Assembly (NCBI RefSeq): GCF_019795155.1
Contig: NZ_JAILYN010000034.1
Span: forward strand, 1-51,182
Length of the DNA: 51,182 nucleotides
Source of the DNA: Marinobacterium arenosum
GTDB taxonomy: Bacteria; Pseudomonadota; Gammaproteobacteria; Pseudomonadales; Balneatricaceae
Direction: 5' to 3'
The notes under the pieces are model-generated. The model did not search any database. It saw nothing but the letters and a program-made list of their open reading frames with translations, and was not told the origin of the DNA. The position numbers and the translations under genes were made by a program. The first letter of the stretch is position 1, and each line of letters begins with the position of its first letter. Below are positions 1,844-50,431 of the stretch, piece by piece.

Positions 1844-4039
1844 TCAGAGATCCTGCTGAAGCTGCTCGGCCAGTTTCTTGCGCAGCCCTTCAATCTCCTG
1901 GTTGGCCTTCTGGGCTTCGATCCGGTAGCGGAACACCTCCTCGTAGCGCTGCTCCAGCTTCTGCTCCAGGCCTGCGATCTTCTCCTCCTGCTGCCGGGCG
2001 GTGGCTTGCAGGGCGTCGATCTTGGCTTGCAGTTCCTCGATCAGGCCGAAGCCGCCCTCTTCGGCGCCGCTTCTGATGGTCTCCTGTTCGATGGTTGGTA
2101 CGTTCAGCTCGGAAACGATATGGCTGTACAGCGCTTTCAGATCGGCGGATTCGCGTTCGTTGTAACGGATGCTGTTTTCCATCGCGCTATGGGCACCGGC
2201 AGCGCCGATTGAACCGGCCAGCACATGCTCGACCATACGGTGAAATTCGACCAGCTCGATGATGGTGACCCTGTCCTTGCCCGACACCTGCAGGTCTTCG
2301 GCGATGGTCTGCACTGAGCGACTCGCCTTCTCGTCACTGAGGTAGCTGGCCAGCAGGCTCTCCGCCTCGTCCATCTTGGGATGCAGCGCGATATAGGCTT
2401 CCAGCCCGGTTGGCCGGGCTTTGTGCTGGCGGGCTGCGGGCAGCAAGGCGCAGAGGAATTCGGTGGTCAGGTTGCGTTCGCTCTTGTTTGGCTTGTAGAG
2501 CAGGGAGCCGATCAGGTAACCGGCGATATTCAGCAGTAACGACCAGAACACCGCATGGCTGATCGGCGGCAGGCCCGACAGGCCGAACAGCGCCTCAGGC
2601 CGCAGCAGGCCGATACCCCAGGGGCCTTCGTTGAGCAGGTCGGCGCTGAACCAGCCGTGTTTGATGAAGGTCGGCAGCGCCAGCGTGTACCACCAGGTGG
2701 CGAAGCCCAGGCTGAGGCCGAGCAGGGCGCCAAGGCTGTTGCCCCGTTTCCAGAACAGGCCTCCCAGTAGAGGCGGTGCCAGCTGCAGGATCGCGGCGAA
2801 GGAGAGTAGGCCGATCGCCACCAGAATGTAGGAGTCGGCGAACTCGTCGGCGAACCAGTAACTGCCGAACAGGATCGCGGCGACCAGCAGCCAGCGGATC
2901 TGCAGCAGGTAGTTGTGCAGCTGGTTGAGCAGGCCGAATTTCTCGATCAACGGCAGTACCAGATGGTTGGAGGCCATGGTCGCCAGCGTCATGGTGGTGA
3001 TCAGGATCATCCCGGTGGCGGCTGAGAAGCCGCCGATGAAGGCGATCAGGGTGATCAGGTCTTCGCCCTGGCTCTGTGGCAGCATCAGCACGAAATAGTC
3101 GGCATTCTCCGACGGCAGGTTGCTGAGCAGACCGGCACCGGCGATCGGTATCACAAAGATGTTGCTGGCCACCATATAGAGGGGGAACAGCCACATGGCG
3201 GTCTTGATGTGCCGTTGATGGACGTTCTCGACCACCGCGACATGGAACTGGCGCGGCAGCAGCTGAACGCCGACGAAACTGAGGATGATCAGCGTCAGCC
3301 AGAGGACGCCGGCATCTTCGTGGGCCGCGGCGCTCATCACATAGCTGATGTTATGGTCGTGCATCCGTTGGGCGATATCGCCGAAGCCGTCATACAGGTA
3401 GTAGGTGACGAAGATGCCGACAACCAGGAAAGCGGTTAGCTTGACCAGGCATTCGGCGACCAGCGCCGAGATCATCCCCTGGTGGCGTTCGGTCGGGTCC
3501 AGCCGGCGTACCCCGAAGATGATGGTGAAGGCGGCCATGAACAGGGTCACCAGCAAGCCGGCGGCCCGGACGTCCAATACCTCGCCTGAGGGCGCGTCGG
3601 TGATGATCTGCAGCGAATCGATGACCGCCTTCAGCTGCAACGCGATATAGGGGGTGACGCCGAACAGGGCGATCAGGCTGACCAGGGCTGCCAGCGCCGG
3701 CGAGCGGTTATAGCGGGTGGAGATGAAGTCAGCCACGCTGGTGATGCGGAACGCTTCCTTGGCCTGCACCATTCGGCGCAGTGATACCCAACCGAACATG
3801 ATGCCGAGGAAGGCGCCGATATAGACCCCGAGATAGAGCAGGCCGTTCTGGCTGGCAAAGCCGACGCTGCCGTAGAACGACCAGGAGGTATGGAACACCG
3901 CCAGTGACAGGGCATAGAGCCAGGGCTTGTCGGGATTGTACCGGTTTTGTTCGATGCGCCGCTCCACCAGTTGGGCTATACCGAACAAAAAGGCCATGTA
4001 GCAGGTGACGACCAGGATGACCGTGAGTGGGCTGAACAT
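1844..4039 (-). CDS. SLC5 (sodium:solute symporter)-like membrane protein with STAC-like region and coiled coil
   Basis: The protein has 731 residues. About residues 1-520 form a polytopic membrane domain of the SLC5/SSF type, closest in style to the transporter-like sensor half of CbrA-type histidine kinases (AVFHTSWSFYGSVGFA near the N-terminus, VRRLDPTERHQGM in the middle). A soluble stretch at about 565-630 (VEHVLAGSIGAAGAHS) resembles the STAC domain that links SLC5 modules to kinases. The last 65 residues are a long charged coiled coil. No H-box, HATPase_c or receiver is present. It may be a solute sensor or transporter with a regulatory tail; the substrate is unknown. It is divergent from pxpC (216 bp apart). 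Confidence 0.75.
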   Translation of the reverse strand: MFSPLTVILVVTCYMAFLFGIAQLVERRIEQNRYNPDKPWLYALSLAVFHTSWSFYGSVGFASQNGLLYLGVYIGAFLGIMFGWVSLRRMVQAKEAFRITSVADFISTRYNRSPALAALVSLIALFGVTPYIALQLKAVIDSLQIITDAPSGEVLDVRAAGLLVTLFMAAFTIIFGVRRLDPTERHQGMISALVAECLVKLTAFLVVGIFVTYYLYDGFGDIAQRMHDHNISYVMSAAAHEDAGVLWLTLIILSFVGVQLLPRQFHVAVVENVHQRHIKTAMWLFPLYMVASNIFVIPIAGAGLLSNLPSENADYFVLMLPQSQGEDLITLIAFIGGFSAATGMILITTMTLATMASNHLVLPLIEKFGLLNQLHNYLLQIRWLLVAAILFGSYWFADEFADSYILVAIGLLSFAAILQLAPPLLGGLFWKRGNSLGALLGLSLGFATWWYTLALPTFIKHGWFSADLLNEGPWGIGLLRPEALFGLSGLPPISHAVFWSLLLNIAGYLIGSLLYKPNKSERNLTTEFLCALLPAARQHKARPTGLEAYIALHPKMDEAESLLASYLSDEKASRSVQTIAEDLQVSGKDRVTIIELVEFHRMVEHVLAGSIGAAGAHSAMENSIRYNERESADLKALYSHIVSELNVPTIEQETIRSGAEEGGFGLIEELQAKIDALQATARQQEEKIAGLEQKLEQRYEEVFRYRIEAQKANQEIEGLRKKLAEQLQQDL

Positions 4040-4255: not shown

Positions 4256-5227
4256 ATGGGGCTGAAGGTGATCAAGCCGGGCCTGTTGACCACGGTGCAG
4301 GATTGCGGTCGATTCGGCTACCTGCGGCTGGGGCTGACCTGCGGTGGTGCCATGGATGAACAGGCGGCGTGCTGGGCCAACCATCTGCTGGATAATCCGG
4401 TCGACGCCGCGTTGCTGGAGATCACCATCGGTAATGTCGAGCTCCGGGCAGAGCGGCCGTTATGGCTGGCGGTCACCGGTGCGGACCTTCAGCTGGACCT
4501 GAATGGCCGGCCGATCGCCCCCTGGCAGAGTTTTCCGGTGGCGGCCGGCGACCGGCTGCACTTTGGCTGGGCGCGCCGCGGCATCCGTGGCTACCTGGCG
4601 GTGGCCGGCGGTTTGCAGGTACCGGCTTGCTTCGGCAGCCGTTCGTCGGTACTGCGTGAGCCGCATGATGGCCTGCTGGGCCGGGCGCTGACCGCCGGTG
4701 ATGAGCTGCCCTGCCTGGCCGAACAGCCGGACCGGCAGCGGCGGATGACGCCGCCGACTTTCCAGCCCGATTACCGGGCCGAGTTGGTACTGCGGGTGAT
4801 CCTGGGATACCAGATCGAGCGCTTCAGGCTGGCCGACCTGAAGCAGTTCTTCAGCAGTCCTTATCTATTGCAACCGGAAAGCGACCGGATGGGCTACCGA
4901 CTCAGCGGCCCGGCTATCAGGCCCGAACTGTCGGGGATGCTGTCGGAGGGGACCTGCTACGGTGCGATCCAGGTGCCGCCGGACGGTCAGCCGATCGTAT
5001 TGATGAAGGACCACCAGTCGCTGGGCGGGTATGCCAAGCTGGGGGCGGTACTGTCGCTGGATGCGTTCGCGCTCAGCCAGCGCCAGGCCGGCACCGAGCT
5101 GCGTTTTGCGGAGATCGAACTGGCCGAGGCACAACGGCTGATGCGGGCGTTCTACCGCTTCTTCGGCGTGCAGCACGCCGGCCGCTCGGCCCGTGGCGGT
5201 ACCGGGTCCAGGCCACCCTCGGAGTAG
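4256..5227 (+). CDS. pxpC: 5-oxoprolinase subunit C / biotin-dependent carboxyltransferase family protein
   Basis: The protein has 323 residues from ATG 4256, supported by GGGAGG at 4241-4246; an ATG 24 codons upstream lacks such a site. The N-terminus ([20 protein letters not shown]) and the C-terminal motif [20 protein letters not shown] are diagnostic for PxpC (KipA/YbgK). PxpC works with PxpB and PxpA to hydrolyse 5-oxoproline to glutamate with ATP. No pxpB or pxpA is present here, which is unusual because the three normally form an operon; partners would have to be elsewhere. The last 76 bp overlap the 3' end of the convergent yidD, and the C-terminal tail (after about residue 300) is low-complexity and probably unconserved. 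Confidence 0.85.
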
Positions 5228-23978: not shown

Positions 23979-25151
23979 ATGAGTCATCCTTGCCAATCAA
24001 TTCTTCTGCTGCACCCGTCGTCGCAAGTCGTCGACCGGGTGTTTGCTATTCTTGACGAAGCGGAGCTGCCTCCGGTTCGCATCACTACCGCCTTTTCTTA
24101 TAGCGAAGCGGTTCAGGCGCTCGCGGAGCGCCGTTTTTCGTTGATCATCGCCTTTGCAACCCCCGAGCTTGATCGCCAGCTGGAAGAGTTGGTCTCGCTG
24201 CAGGATCCGCGTCCCGTGCTGGCGTTGTTGGAGGGGCAGTCGTCCTGTGAAGTGGTGATGCAGTCGTTACGGCAGGGTGCATCGGATGTATTCCTGGTGG
24301 ATACGATGGTAACCGAAGCGCAGGCCTTTGCCGGCTCGGTGATCCGCTTTCTGGAACGTGCCAGGCTGGTTGACGATACCGAAAGCTACCGTGAACAGCT
24401 CGAGCGCAGCCTGGACGAGCTCGAGTCCGACCAGGCGGCGGCGAGGCATATTCAGCACCGGATGCTGCCCAACGCCAAGATGCAGGCGCTGCCGGGTATC
24501 GGTGTGCGCTATGACCTGACACCGTCGCTCTATCTGAGTGGTGACTTCGTCGATGTGGTGACGCTGGATAAGCGTTACTGCATGTTCTATCTCGCCGATG
24601 TATCCGGACATGGTGCCTCGTCGGCATTGGTAACGGTGTTGTTGAAGAATATGGCCAACCGGTTGGCACGAAACTTTAGACGTGGCTCCAGTTTTGATGT
24701 ACTTTCGCCGACCAGCACGCTGAAGCGGATCAACCATGAGCTGCTGGAGACAGGGCTGGGCAAGCATTTGACGATGTTTGTCGGCTTGTTCGACCTGAAA
24801 ACGGAATGTCTGCACTATGCTGTGGGAGGGCATCATCCGATGCCGCTGATTTCGACGGCTGAGGGTAGCGATTACCTGGCTGGTCGGGGAATGCCGGTCG
24901 GCTTGTTCGACGAGCCGGTATTCGATGAGCATGCGGTCAAGCTGCCTGAAGCCTTCCGGTTGACGCTGTTTTCGGACGGTATTCTGGAGGTGTTGCCGCA
25001 GGAGTCGTTGGAACAGAAGGAACAGTACCTTCGCCGGGTGGTGGAGGAAACGGGAACTGATGATCCGATTCAGCTTAAGCAGGCGCTGTTGGGTGGCGAG
25101 GTCCCCGAGGCGCCCGATGATATCGCAATCATGATTCTGGCGAGGCAGTAA
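23979..25151 (+). CDS. Response-regulator-like protein with degenerate receiver and active-looking PP2C/SpoIIE phosphatase domain
   Basis: The protein has 390 residues. Residues 1-128 have the receiver fold, but the acidic pocket is gone (LLHPS instead of DD after strand 1), the phospho-Asp position reads IIAFA (Phe59), and the Lys after strand 5 is lost (VFLVDT). A helical linker (130-160) leads to a PPM-type phosphatase domain with its metal ligands kept: SGD (187-189), ADVSGHG (206-212), FSDG (331-334) and PDD (379-381). It most resembles the Pseudomonas RssB/HsbR class, which dephosphorylates a partner STAS protein. The STAS gene follows after 5 nt. So this is probably the phosphatase arm of a partner switch. 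Confidence 0.85.
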   Translation: MSHPCQSILLLHPSSQVVDRVFAILDEAELPPVRITTAFSYSEAVQALAERRFSLIIAFATPELDRQLEELVSLQDPRPVLALLEGQSSCEVVMQSLRQGASDVFLVDTMVTEAQAFAGSVIRFLERARLVDDTESYREQLERSLDELESDQAAARHIQHRMLPNAKMQALPGIGVRYDLTPSLYLSGDFVDVVTLDKRYCMFYLADVSGHGASSALVTVLLKNMANRLARNFRRGSSFDVLSPTSTLKRINHELLETGLGKHLTMFVGLFDLKTECLHYAVGGHHPMPLISTAEGSDYLAGRGMPVGLFDEPVFDEHAVKLPEAFRLTLFSDGILEVLPQESLEQKEQYLRRVVEETGTDDPIQLKQALLGGEVPEAPDDIAIMILARQ

Positions 25152-25156
25152 GCGGG

Positions 25157-25636
25157 ATGAGTAACGGAGCAATTTTTTATGCCTGTCAGTCGGGCCGCTA
25201 CGTGCTGAAGTGTGTTGGTGACGTACGCCTGACGCTCTGCTCGTCGCTGGATGCCCATCTGCAGCAGGTGTTTGCCTGTGCCGGAATAGAGGATATCCTG
25301 ATCGACCTGACCGAAACTGACGCGATTGACAGTACTTCGCTCGGGTTGATTGCCAAGCTGGCGGTCAAGTCGCAGCAGCTGGGCTTGGCCAAGCCGGCAC
25401 TGGTGTCGACAAATGAGGATGTCACCCGGGTGCTGATGAGCATGGGGTTTGATCATGTATTCCTGCTGCTCGATCAGTTGCCGACCAGTTCCAGCGATCT
25501 GCAAGCGCTGCCTTGGGTTCAGGAGTCCGATGATCAGGTGAAAGCACGGATTATCGCGGCTCATCGAGTGTTGATGGGGCTGAACGAATCCAATCGAGAG
25601 GCGTTTCAAGACCTGATCAAGGCGCTGGAGTGCTAG
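25157..25636 (+). CDS. STAS-domain anti-sigma factor antagonist
   Basis: This 159-residue protein has a STAS domain in its first 105 residues, with the phosphorylatable serine in AIDSTSLGLIAKLA (Ser59), and a helical C-terminal extension of about 50 residues. It starts 5 nt after the phosphatase stop, so the two are co-transcribed. In such partner switches the unphosphorylated STAS protein binds an anti-sigma factor or kinase, and the phosphatase resets it. Pseudomonas relatives (RssC/HsbA type) act on RpoS stability or on FlgM and c-di-GMP enzymes. The kinase is not in this window. Confidence 0.88.
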   Translation: MSNGAIFYACQSGRYVLKCVGDVRLTLCSSLDAHLQQVFACAGIEDILIDLTETDAIDSTSLGLIAKLAVKSQQLGLAKPALVSTNEDVTRVLMSMGFDHVFLLLDQLPTSSSDLQALPWVQESDDQVKARIIAAHRVLMGLNESNREAFQDLIKALEC

Positions 25637-25645
25637 GGTTTTCTG

Positions 25646-25687
25646 CCAGTTATTTTCTACCAGTTACCAGTTATCGACAATCAGTTA
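25646..25687 (+). repeat. Heptanucleotide-phased repeat array
   Basis: Six contiguous 7-nt units stay in phase from 25646: CCAGTTA, TTTTCTA, CCAGTTA, CCAGTTA, TCGACAA, TCAGTTA. The array begins 10 bp after the STAS gene stop. Confidence 0.6.
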
Positions 25688-25842
25688 ACCGTGGTTGCGC
25701 TTGGCTGCAGTCCGGGGTGCGGAAAGCCGTTGCGGGGCCTGTTTCCCTTGGAACACCAAAACCAACGGGCCAACCGGCTAAGAACGCAAGCTCGCTTAAA
25801 TACCAAAAAACGAAAATTAAGAATTTTTCCTATATACCGCCA

Positions 25843-25995
25843 AGCCTGGATCCATAGAATAGGCATTGGAAGGGGATGCAAAGGGAGTTGCACAAGTTCA
25901 AGGATGAGCGACCTCTTTCCGGTACTCAGGGAGCGAGTGCTGTATTGGCAATGAAGCTGTAGAGGGCCTGTTGCATAGCAACCAGGCCCTTTTTC
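25843..25995 (+). ncRNA. Candidate CsrB/RsmY/RsmZ-type small RNA (CsrA/RsmA sponge)
   Basis: Six GGA motifs occur at 25848, 25868, 25874, 25884, 25902 and 25930. Three lie in loops of clear hairpins: TGCAA-AGGGAG-TTGCA (25877-25892), GTTC-AAGGAT-GAGC (25896-25909) and GTACTC-AGGGAGC-GAGTGC (25922-25940). A fourth, GCAT-TGGAAGGGG-ATGC (25863-25879), overlaps the first and may alternate with it. A-N-GGA in a hairpin loop is the binding signature of CsrA/RsmA. A strong intrinsic terminator closes the unit. Candidate -10 boxes are TATATA (25831-25836) and TAGAAT (25855-25860), so the 5' end could be near 25843 or 25867. No ORF competes. The rest of 25688-25842 holds nothing else that I can name. 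Confidence 0.6.
25963..25995 (+). terminator. Intrinsic terminator of the candidate Csr/Rsm RNA
   Basis: A 12-bp stem with one bulged C (25963-25974 with 25978-25990) and a tight ATA-sized loop is followed by TTTTT. It points on the plus strand, more than 320 bp from the preceding gene, which argues for a separate non-coding transcript. Confidence 0.85.
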
Positions 25996-26125
25996 ATGCC
26001 TGTAAGAAGTCTCTGAAAGCCTCTTTCTGCTGACGCTAAAGGTTAGTAAGGTACCGCTCTTTTTCGGCTACATGCGGTGCGCCCTTTGGATATCGCTGCA
26101 CCGCCGCCAAAGGCGGTTGAAGCCG

Positions 26126-26157
26126 GAAAAAGCCCGCCCACATCGGTTCGGGCGGGC
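26126..26157 (-). terminator. Intrinsic terminator of the dusA-tal operon
   Basis: Stem GCCCGCCC/GGGCGGGC (26132-26139 with 26150-26157), followed on the minus strand by a U run (A tract at 26127-26131), 14 bp after the tal stop. Immediately left (26068-26125) is another palindromic extragenic element, with CACCGCCGCCAAAGGCGG in it. Confidence 0.85.
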
Positions 26158-26171
26158 CAGAATGCCGGGGT

Positions 26172-27125
26172 TTAGTCGTGCTGGCTCAGCAGTTGTTCCA
26201 GTAGTACCTGGTCGGCAGCAAACTTGCGGATCCCCTCGGCCAGCTTCTCGGTGGCCATCGCATCCTCGTTCATCAGCCAGCGGAACTCGTGCTCCGAAGG
26301 TTCGTGACGACTATCTTCGCTGCGCTGCTCGCCGCCCAGCTGCCGGCTCAGTGGCGCGTTGCTGGCGGCCAGCTGCTCCATCAGCGGCGGGGCGATGGTC
26401 AGCCGGTCGCAGCCGGCCAGCGACAGGATCTCATCGGTGTTGCGGAAGCTGGCGCCCATTACGATGGTGTTGTAACCGTGGGTCTTGAAGTAGCGGTAGA
26501 TTGCGCTGACCGAGCGTACCCCGGGGTCGGCTGCGCCGCTGAAATCCTGCTCAGGCTGTTGTGCCTTGTACCAGTCCAGAATCCGGCCGACGAACGGCGA
26601 GATCAGGTAGGCGCCGGCATCGGCGCAGGCCGCAGCCTGGGTCTGGCTGAACAGCAAGGTCAGGTTGCAGTTGATCCCTTCGCGTTCCAGTTCCCGGGCG
26701 GCCTGAATCCCCTCCCAGGTGGAGGCGATCTTGACCAGCACCCGCTCGCGGCCGATACCGTTCTCCTCATACAGCCGGATCAGCTTGCGGGCCCGCGCCA
26801 GCGTGGCCTCACAGTCGAACGACAGCCGGGCATCCACTTCGGTGGAGATCCGGCCGGGGATCAGCTGCAGGATCTGGCAGCCGATCAGCACCGCGAAGGC
26901 GTCGGTCATATCGTGCAACAGCGTATCGCCGCCATTATTCTGTGCCAGAGCCCACTGTTTGGCGCGTCCCAGCAGCGGGCGATACTCGTCCAGCGCCGCC
27001 GCCTTCAGTAGCAGTGAAGGATTGGTGGTCGCATCCTCCGGTGTAAACTGGCGGATCGCGTCTATATCGCCGGTGTCGGCCACCACCACGGTCATCTGTT
27101 TAAGCTGTTCGAGCTGGTTCATCAT
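26172..27125 (-). CDS. tal: Transaldolase
   Basis: This 317-residue enzyme of the non-oxidative pentose phosphate pathway transfers a dihydroxyacetone unit from sedoheptulose 7-phosphate to glyceraldehyde 3-phosphate. Schiff-base Lys132 is in [13 protein letters not shown], and family blocks [25 protein letters not shown] and [20 protein letters not shown] are intact. Length matches E. coli TalB (317). Two adjacent ATGs open the frame; the first fits a GGAAG at a 6-nt distance. It starts 22 bp after dusA and shares its transcript, the same order as in Pseudomonas. Confidence 0.95.
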
Positions 27126-31320: not shown

Positions 31321-31396
31321 GGGGCCTTAGCTCAGCTGGGAGAGCGCAACACTGGCAGTGTTGAGGTCAGCGGTTCGATCCCGCTAGGCTCCACCA
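31321..31396 (+). tRNA. tRNA-Ala (anticodon GGC)
   Basis: The 76-nt sequence folds as a full cloverleaf with encoded CCA. The acceptor stem pairs the 5' GGGGCCT with the 3' AGGCTCC. D-loop AGCTCAGCTGGGAGAGC and T-arm GCGGTTCGATCCCGC are standard. The anticodon loop CTGGCAG gives anticodon GGC at 31354-31356. Confidence 0.95.
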
Positions 31397-31512: not shown

Positions 31513-31588
31513 GTCCCATTCGTCTAGTGGCCTAGGACACCGCCCTTTCACGGCGGTAACAGGGGTTCGAACCCCCTATGGGACGCCA
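31513..31588 (+). tRNA. tRNA-Glu (anticodon TTC)
   Basis: The 76-nt cloverleaf has encoded CCA. The acceptor stem pairs GTCCCAT with ATGGGAC. T-arm AGGGGTTCGAACCCCCT and anticodon stem CCGCC/GGCGG are perfect. The anticodon loop CTTTCAC places TTC at 31547-31549. Confidence 0.95.
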
Positions 31589-47993: not shown

Positions 47994-48067
47994 GCGGGTG
48001 TAGTTCAATGGTAGAACGGCAGCTTCCCAAGCTGCATACGGGAGTTCGATTCTCCTCACCCGCTCCA
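47994..48067 (+). tRNA. tRNA-Gly (anticodon CCC)
   Basis: The 74-nt cloverleaf has encoded CCA. The acceptor pairs GCGGGTG with CACCCGC. The T-arm is GGGAGTTCGATTCTCC, and the anticodon stem GCAGC/GCTGC closes the loop TTCCCAA, giving CCC at 48026-48028. Confidence 0.95.
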
Positions 48068-50320: not shown

Positions 50321-50431
50321 GGCGGCTCTGCCGGTCCTCTCGCAACATGAAGCCGTGAACCCGGTCAGGCCCGGAAGGGAGCAGCCGCAGCGGTGGAATT
50401 GTGTGCCGGGATGTGGCTGGTGGGGTCGCCC
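50321..50431 (+). ncRNA. ffs: 4.5S signal recognition particle RNA
   Basis: The conserved apical domain is unmistakable: GGTCAGGCCCGGAAGGGAGC with the GGAA tetraloop, AGCAGCCGCAGC, and GTGTGCCGGGATGTGGCTGG. The terminal helix pairs GGCGGCTC (50321-50328) with GGGTCGCC (50423-50430). Size (about 110 nt) matches E. coli 4.5S RNA. With Ffh it targets membrane proteins to FtsY. A T-rich stretch (CTTTCTCTTTTCT) just after it probably ends transcription. Confidence 0.96.

Follow-up and report, generated by a model that had tools for sequence, protein, structure and literature searches.

A 128-nt segment of the Marinobacterium arenosum contig analyzed here (51,182 nucleotides, the whole of which is called the window) very probably encodes a Csr-type decoy RNA, with its transcription and its binding of CsrA predicted from the sequence. 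A non-coding RNA of ca. 128 nt, with its gene downstream of rssB-rssC, would be transcribed from a promoter of its own, and its GGA-bearing hairpin loops would bind CsrA and titrate it off mRNAs, like CsrB, RsmY, and RsmZ. A regulator acting on the box TTARGAATTTTTCCTATA at approximately −42 would switch on both this RNA and its siblings in a thiamine locus, and the best candidate for the activator is the GacA/UvrY-like response regulator of the family. Computation established the conserved loops, the 3′ stems, the box, the terminator, and a csrA gene. A decoy of the Csr/Rsm type had been proposed for this place in an initial annotation of the DNA; the retention of loop GGAs in five genera, the covariation of the 3′ stems, the specificity of the box, and the presence of csrA all support that proposal. 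We infer that the RNA is transcribed and bound by CsrA, and likewise infer which protein activates it and any influence on the control of RpoS by rssBC.

The predicted RNA and its surroundings

The RNA had been placed directly after a phosphatase/STAS gene pair and before tal. The pair was indeed RssB-RssC-like by its best matches, though both scores were below the cut-offs, and tal follows on the opposite strand. In the window copy, 180 nt lie between rssC and the box. The features of the locus are as follows.

23979..25151, + strand: rssB-like response regulator/PP2C phosphatase with a SpoIIE domain (NF045505, 283.6 bits, cut-off 700; PF07228)
25157..25636, + strand: rssC-like STAS anti-sigma factor antagonist (NF045506, 196.1 bits, cut-off 250; PF01740)
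25817..25834, + strand: 18-bp near-palindromic promoter box, TTAAGAATTTTTCCTATA, centred approximately −42 from the predicted start (motif match)
25855..25860, + strand: predicted −10 hexamer TAGAAT, spaced 20 nt from the box (best TATAAT match 14–29 nt after the box)
25867..25994, + strand: predicted Csr-type decoy RNA, 128 nt (fold, shuffle test, covariance model match)
25877..25892, + strand: hairpin 1, loop AGGGAG at 25882–25887, GGA at 25884 (fold)
25896..25909, + strand: hairpin 2, loop AGGA at 25901–25904, GGA at 25902 (fold)
25920..25942, + strand: hairpin 3, loop AGGGAGC at 25928–25934, GGA at 25930 (fold; covarying 8-bp helix)
25961..25994, + strand: intrinsic terminator, bulged stem 25961–25992 plus T5 at 25990–25994 (fold)
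26172..27125, − strand: tal, transaldolase, convergent with the RNA (TIGR00874, 466.8 bits, over the cut-off)

A motif scan of 25843–25995 located six GGAs on the + strand, at 25848, 25868, 25874, 25884, 25902, and 25930. The six motifs within about 85 nt that had been described were thus counted at 25848–25930; five of them are in the predicted RNA, and the one at 25848 is upstream of the predicted −10. Folding of the predicted transcript, 25867–25994, gave a closing stem enclosing two hairpins, a third hairpin, a small fourth hairpin without a GGA, and the terminator (MFE −48.2 kcal/mol, z = −2.43 against shuffles). Once this transcript was folded, the three GGA hairpin loops claimed earlier appeared as clean loops: the GGAs at 25884, 25902, and 25930 had an unpaired probability of 1.00, with the GGA at 25868 paired and that at 25874 mostly paired. 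The ends of the RNA matter, because the wider segment 25820–26000, for which folding had been suggested, adopted a different MFE structure that was only mildly stable (−61.3 kcal/mol, z = −1.98); the hairpins described appear with 25867–25994.

The transcript 25867–25994 carried three hairpin-loop GGAs compared with a mean of 0.35 in 200 shuffles (p = 0.005). The raw GGA count was ordinary against dinucleotide shuffles when an over-long transcript of 188 nt was used (p = 0.27). The strong terminator of the initial annotation was recovered by folding as a bulged stem and T5; a simple terminator scan did not list it at 25961–25994. The region had also been described as having no ORF. Three mechanical ORFs of 70–87 aa do overlap it, and no indication that they are genes was found:

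25630–25857, + strand: overlapping ORF (mechanical ORF list)
25691–25954, + strand: overlapping ORF (mechanical ORF list)
25681–25893, − strand: overlapping ORF (mechanical ORF list)

GGA counts that are not extreme in themselves, in a stretch on which tal converges, are what would be seen if this were a GGA-rich terminator region formed by chance, such as a terminator shared with tal. However, a hairpin followed by T5 is found on tal's own strand at approximately 26127–26157, closer to tal, and the five-genus conservation, the covariation, and the box specificity described below speak against chance. A chance terminator is therefore already disfavoured as an explanation and is extremely improbable.

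Orthologues and conserved structure

Plain DNA similarity failed to recover orthologues, because BLASTN with the RNA and its promoter against 57 relatives reached other genomes only via the box; in three genomes of the same genus it matched nothing. The DNA of the RNA locus thus diverges fast. A protein search found the STAS protein in 89 of 116 family genomes, and the region downstream of the STAS gene was read in 50 of these 89 (30 + 20 loci). By box search and reading, 23 of the 50 loci were seen to have, downstream of the rssC-like gene, a box-like sequence and a −10 as well as GGA hairpins and a terminator. When a covariance model built from the 23 was applied to the remaining 27 loci, two further members emerged, L057 (108.3 bits) and the same-genus L034 (51.8 bits), both outside the training set; the M. 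arenosum sequence, which was in the training set, matched at 25866–25994 with 74.2 bits. In total, the RNA was present by rssC in 25 of the 50 genomes examined, in five genera. Among the genomes examined, it was found in 4/4 of genus g1, 7/7 of g3, 5/5 of g8, 7/11 of g16, and 2/2 of g12. It was not found by rssC among those examined in g5 (7 genomes), g7 (4), g13 (4), and g10 (2), or in g4, g6, g9, and g14 (one genome each).

Model matches away from rssC were obtained in four g7 genomes (39.9–47.5 bits). They are located in G009 contig 1 (3233928–3234061 and 105357–105490), G035 contigs 11 and 26, G023 contig 8, and G076 contig 5, two of these genomes having two matches apiece. Beyond the family, weak model matches (E 0.006–0.01) came from 3 of 293 genomes drawn from the order and were not counted. 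At L034, a transposase-like stretch broken by stops occupies approximately 2245–3145, between rssC and the RNA.

The position of the box relative to rssC varied among the relatives, from overlapping the rssC stop (L046) through a few nucleotides after it (L052) to more than 200 nt after it (L035). A transcript located downstream of rssC, with a box that in L046 overlaps the stop, might mainly be a 3′ UTR product of rssBC, or else a base-pairing sRNA in which the GGA loops are incidental. However, the RNA has its own box and predicted −10. At L034 it lies approximately 1.35 kb beyond rssC, parted from it by the transposase-like insert, yet the box-like sequence, the −10, and the structure are retained. 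The g7 matches away from the rssC locus and the strong retention of the GGA loops among the orthologues also count against these origins, and we regard them as unlikely.

Conservation of the GGA loops in relatives had been named as a check on the decoy reading, and the loops proved to be kept across five genera. Over the 23 orthologues, 83 GGAs were in hairpin loops, compared with 10.7 on average in shuffles (sd 3.3, maximum 24), and the excess was significant at p < 0.05 in 21 of the 23 taken alone. Against dinucleotide shuffles, the raw GGA count was unremarkable for 17 of the 23 and reached p < 0.05 in the other 6. At five loop places, whose column intervals were picked by eye on the same alignment of 23, a GGA was present in 23, 21, 23, 22, and 19 of the 23 orthologues. 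A GGA was found near hairpin 1 in 23/23, near hairpin 2 in 21/23, at hairpin 3 in 23/23, and in the terminator loop in 19/23. The window copy is the sole one of the 23 without a GGA at the fourth loop place and one of the four without a GGA in the terminator loop. Because these two loop GGAs, kept by most relatives, are absent from it, the window copy looks like a reduced member.

Covariation, another check that had been put forward, was detected in the 3′ stems of the 23 orthologues. The consensus structure consisted of 19 pairs, which form the third and fourth hairpins plus the terminator, with 93.2% paired cells; hairpins 1 and 2 are outside this structure and had no covariation support among the 23. 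Changes on both sides were seen at 14 of the 19 pairs, at 7 of the 8 pairs of the hairpin 3 helix, and at 4 of the 8 pairs of the terminator helix. The covariation score was 0.592 compared with 0.350 for shuffled alignments, and none of 500 shuffles reached any of five measures, a test that is inflated by the relatedness of the alignment rows. Slid controls, which are free of that fault but are biased towards a structure that came from this alignment, scored at most 0.248.

The promoter box and its candidate activator

Box-like sequences with 0–3 mismatches to the reference forms precede all 23 tal-locus RNAs, and a predicted −10 was found 18–22 nt after the box in 23/23 promoters. In its TTAGGAA form, the box reads as an odd-centred 15-bp palindrome, TAGGAATTTTTCCTA, and it overlaps the −35 region. 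A sigma-70 promoter scan of 25400–26300 found no match (0.4 expected). The putative promoter has a conserved box and a −10-like hexamer but no sigma-70 match in the scan; the missing match would be consistent with a promoter that depends on the box rather than on a −35 element.

In the 4.8-Mb genome of M. arenosum, the box TTARGAATTTTTCCTATA had four exact matches, every one of them before a GGA-rich stretch (5–13 GGAs). There were none at 1–2 mismatches and three at 3 mismatches, and the reversed control gave two. The looser box pattern, with one mismatch allowed, had 272 matches in 116 family genomes (M. arenosum included) compared with 39 for the reversed pattern, in counts where palindromic sites can score on both strands. 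When one box place per genome was taken, at least 7 GGAs were present in 18 of 29 places (220 nt from 25 nt after the box), compared with 6.2% of 2822 windows from the same box loci, the RNAs themselves included.

The four exact boxes are that of the tal locus and three in tandem in a thiamine locus (L021, contig 82):

3998–4015, − strand of L021: exact box
4303–4320, − strand of L021: exact box
5026–5043, − strand of L021: exact box

The predicted RNAs of this locus span approximately 3800–4995 of L021 and adjoin a TPP riboswitch; judged by eye, the neighbouring genes are thiD, thiC, and a gene for an EamA-type transporter. The three stretches contained 10–13 GGAs each, above shuffles (p 0.000–0.020), with 3, 2, and 2 loop GGAs (p = 0.015, 0.055, and 0.025, respectively). 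Their folds were not unusually stable (z = −1.74, −0.97, and −0.03); for two of the three, the folded length was set at 230 nt and runs past the terminator. In each of two relatives (L022 and L025), a similar thi locus has two box-preceded GGA-rich stretches. The thi-locus stretches matched no Rfam Csr/Rsm family. Homology with the tal-locus RNA is only marginal by the model: the thi-locus RNAs share its box but gave only marginal matches to its model (E 0.14–2 in M. arenosum and two relatives), and they probably form a separate sequence family. Box-carrying loci with TPP riboswitches were also seen at L065, L066, L068, and L085. In L021, imperfect repeats with a shared core occupy approximately 4330–4780, between two of the boxes.

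The GacA/UvrY-like regulator of M. arenosum is encoded at L095 1507–2178 (− strand; 224 aa), and its best family was NF007018 (173 bits, cut-off 280). Its relatives were found in 52 of 60 family genomes, and the recognition helix KT[VI][HR]AHR was constant in 25/25 aligned members of the family. The recognition helix of GacA is of the N-x-Y-R-Y-R type. The helix found here differs from it, which could explain a changed box. The usual place of gacA is next to uvrC; no gacA-like ORF was among the ORFs directly before uvrC (L093). According to passages of PMC8523701 and PMC4682653, the GacA/UvrY box is the 18-bp TGTAAG-N6-CTTACA. This canonical box was rejected as the activator site here, as two perfect copies of it precede no GGA-rich stretch. 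At up to two mismatches it was little enriched (106 matches compared with 74 reversed), and neither of the listed matches on the contig (16223 and 26001) occupies an upstream position in the RNA's intergenic region. In P. aeruginosa, passages of PMC4682653 conclude that only Csr-type RNA genes are direct GacA targets, and they give csrB and csrC as the strongest UvrY targets in E. coli.

The predicted RNA is perhaps switched on by this GacA-like regulator, which would then read the new box. It is also quite possible, though short of an even chance, that the RNA is a true decoy and that its box is read by some other regulator, so that it answers to a different signal. The 15-bp palindrome with its odd centre is unlike the 18-bp canonical box of PMC8523701 and PMC4682653 as excerpted, and it overlaps the −35 region. 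In addition, box and regulator match uncleanly across genomes: a box match was present in 45 of the 52 genomes with the GacA-like regulator, but also in 4 of the 8 without it. On the other hand, the full box precedes only GGA-rich stretches in the M. arenosum genome, as expected of a GacA-type regulon, and the constant helix could account for the changed site. With the GacA-like protein as the reader, the system would be a rewired Gac/Csr switch spanning the family, which we propose tentatively: a regulator with an altered helix, a TTAGGAA-N3-TTCCTATR box near −42, and several unrelated decoy RNAs, one of which, behind rssB-rssC in five genera, would couple the release of CsrA targets to the control of RpoS breakdown.

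Relation to known Csr/Rsm RNAs and to RpoS control

A scan with the Rfam CsrB, RsmY, and RsmZ models had been recommended, and no Csr/Rsm model matched. At gathering score, the Rfam scan of the window and of 14 related loci gave nothing of the Csr/Rsm type; when 25600–26200 was scanned with E allowed up to 10, only six matches appeared, all to other families. PrrB_RsmZ (RF00166) had no covariance match over gathering score in the window and none in the M. arenosum genome. RsmY (RF00195) likewise had none over gathering score in the window; in 37 other genomes it had none over the cut-off, with matches below it in 6. A search of a phage collection with the RNA gave nothing. One csrA gene was found in the genome (PF02599, 91.3 bits, over the cut-off). 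By computation, the predicted RNA is a Csr-type decoy that would work like CsrB and RsmZ and falls outside the RsmY and RsmZ families of Rfam. It very probably represents a new RNA family; it has no match in Rfam 15, its place is kept in five genera, and its box is distinctive. Csr/Rsm RNAs diverge enormously in sequence, as stated in a passage of PMC7366521.

The tal and rssBC genes presumably lie at other places than RsmV in PAO1. Identity with RsmV was rejected, since excerpts of PMC9308961 place RsmV at 1,011,621–1,011,812 of PAO1. The earlier remark that this is not a known RsmX/Y/Z place is consistent with the differing RsmV coordinates and with the finding that, among the matches listed from open-licence PMC full text, none described an Rsm RNA at tal or the Csr RNAs of this family.

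Several known systems resemble the predicted RNA in part, as far as the excerpted sources describe them. RsmY and RsmZ of Pseudomonas are 116–124 nt long with several GGA hairpin loops (PMC9308961) and have an upstream palindromic activating sequence (PMC2375449), whereas the RNA here lies after rssBC and before tal and has a box of different sequence and position. CsrB and CsrC of Marinomonas mediterranea, likened here by description and not by sequence, are under a BarA/UvrY-like pair and have ANGGA motifs and a terminator, but carry the canonical TGTAAG-N6-CTTACA box (PMC8523701). RsmV and RsmW of P. aeruginosa are extra GGA decoys besides RsmY and RsmZ; they differ in that RsmV has another locus and RsmW derives from the 3′ UTR of PA4570 (PMC9308961), and both were reported as not directly Gac-dependent (PMC8395346). 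CsrR1 and CsrR2 of the marine bacterium Alcanivorax dieselolei are likewise predicted CsrA decoys, but CsrR1 derives from the hfq leader and CsrR2 adjoins a ferredoxin gene (PMC9788540).

According to passages of PMC12923157, RpoS breakdown in Azotobacter and P. aeruginosa involves RssB and RssC, and the Gac-Rsm system of Azotobacter controls how stable RpoS is through ClpXP levels. A link of the RNA to RpoS control through rssB-rssC is plausible, and its location is suggestive only; the RNA may, as first proposed, link two layers of stress and biofilm control. The place kept behind rssBC makes such a Csr-RpoS link testable. The decoy type itself is already known; the box and its regulator might give the circuit a new variant of wiring. 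A short promoter box finds predicted Csr-type RNAs that no Rfam model finds, so that the Csr circuit could be mapped across an entire bacterial family. The joint divergence of a GacA-type regulator and its DNA site could be tested in the same way. The window also carries three ordinary tRNA genes and an ordinary small SRP RNA (31321–31393, 31513–31585, 47994–48064, and 50329–50425).
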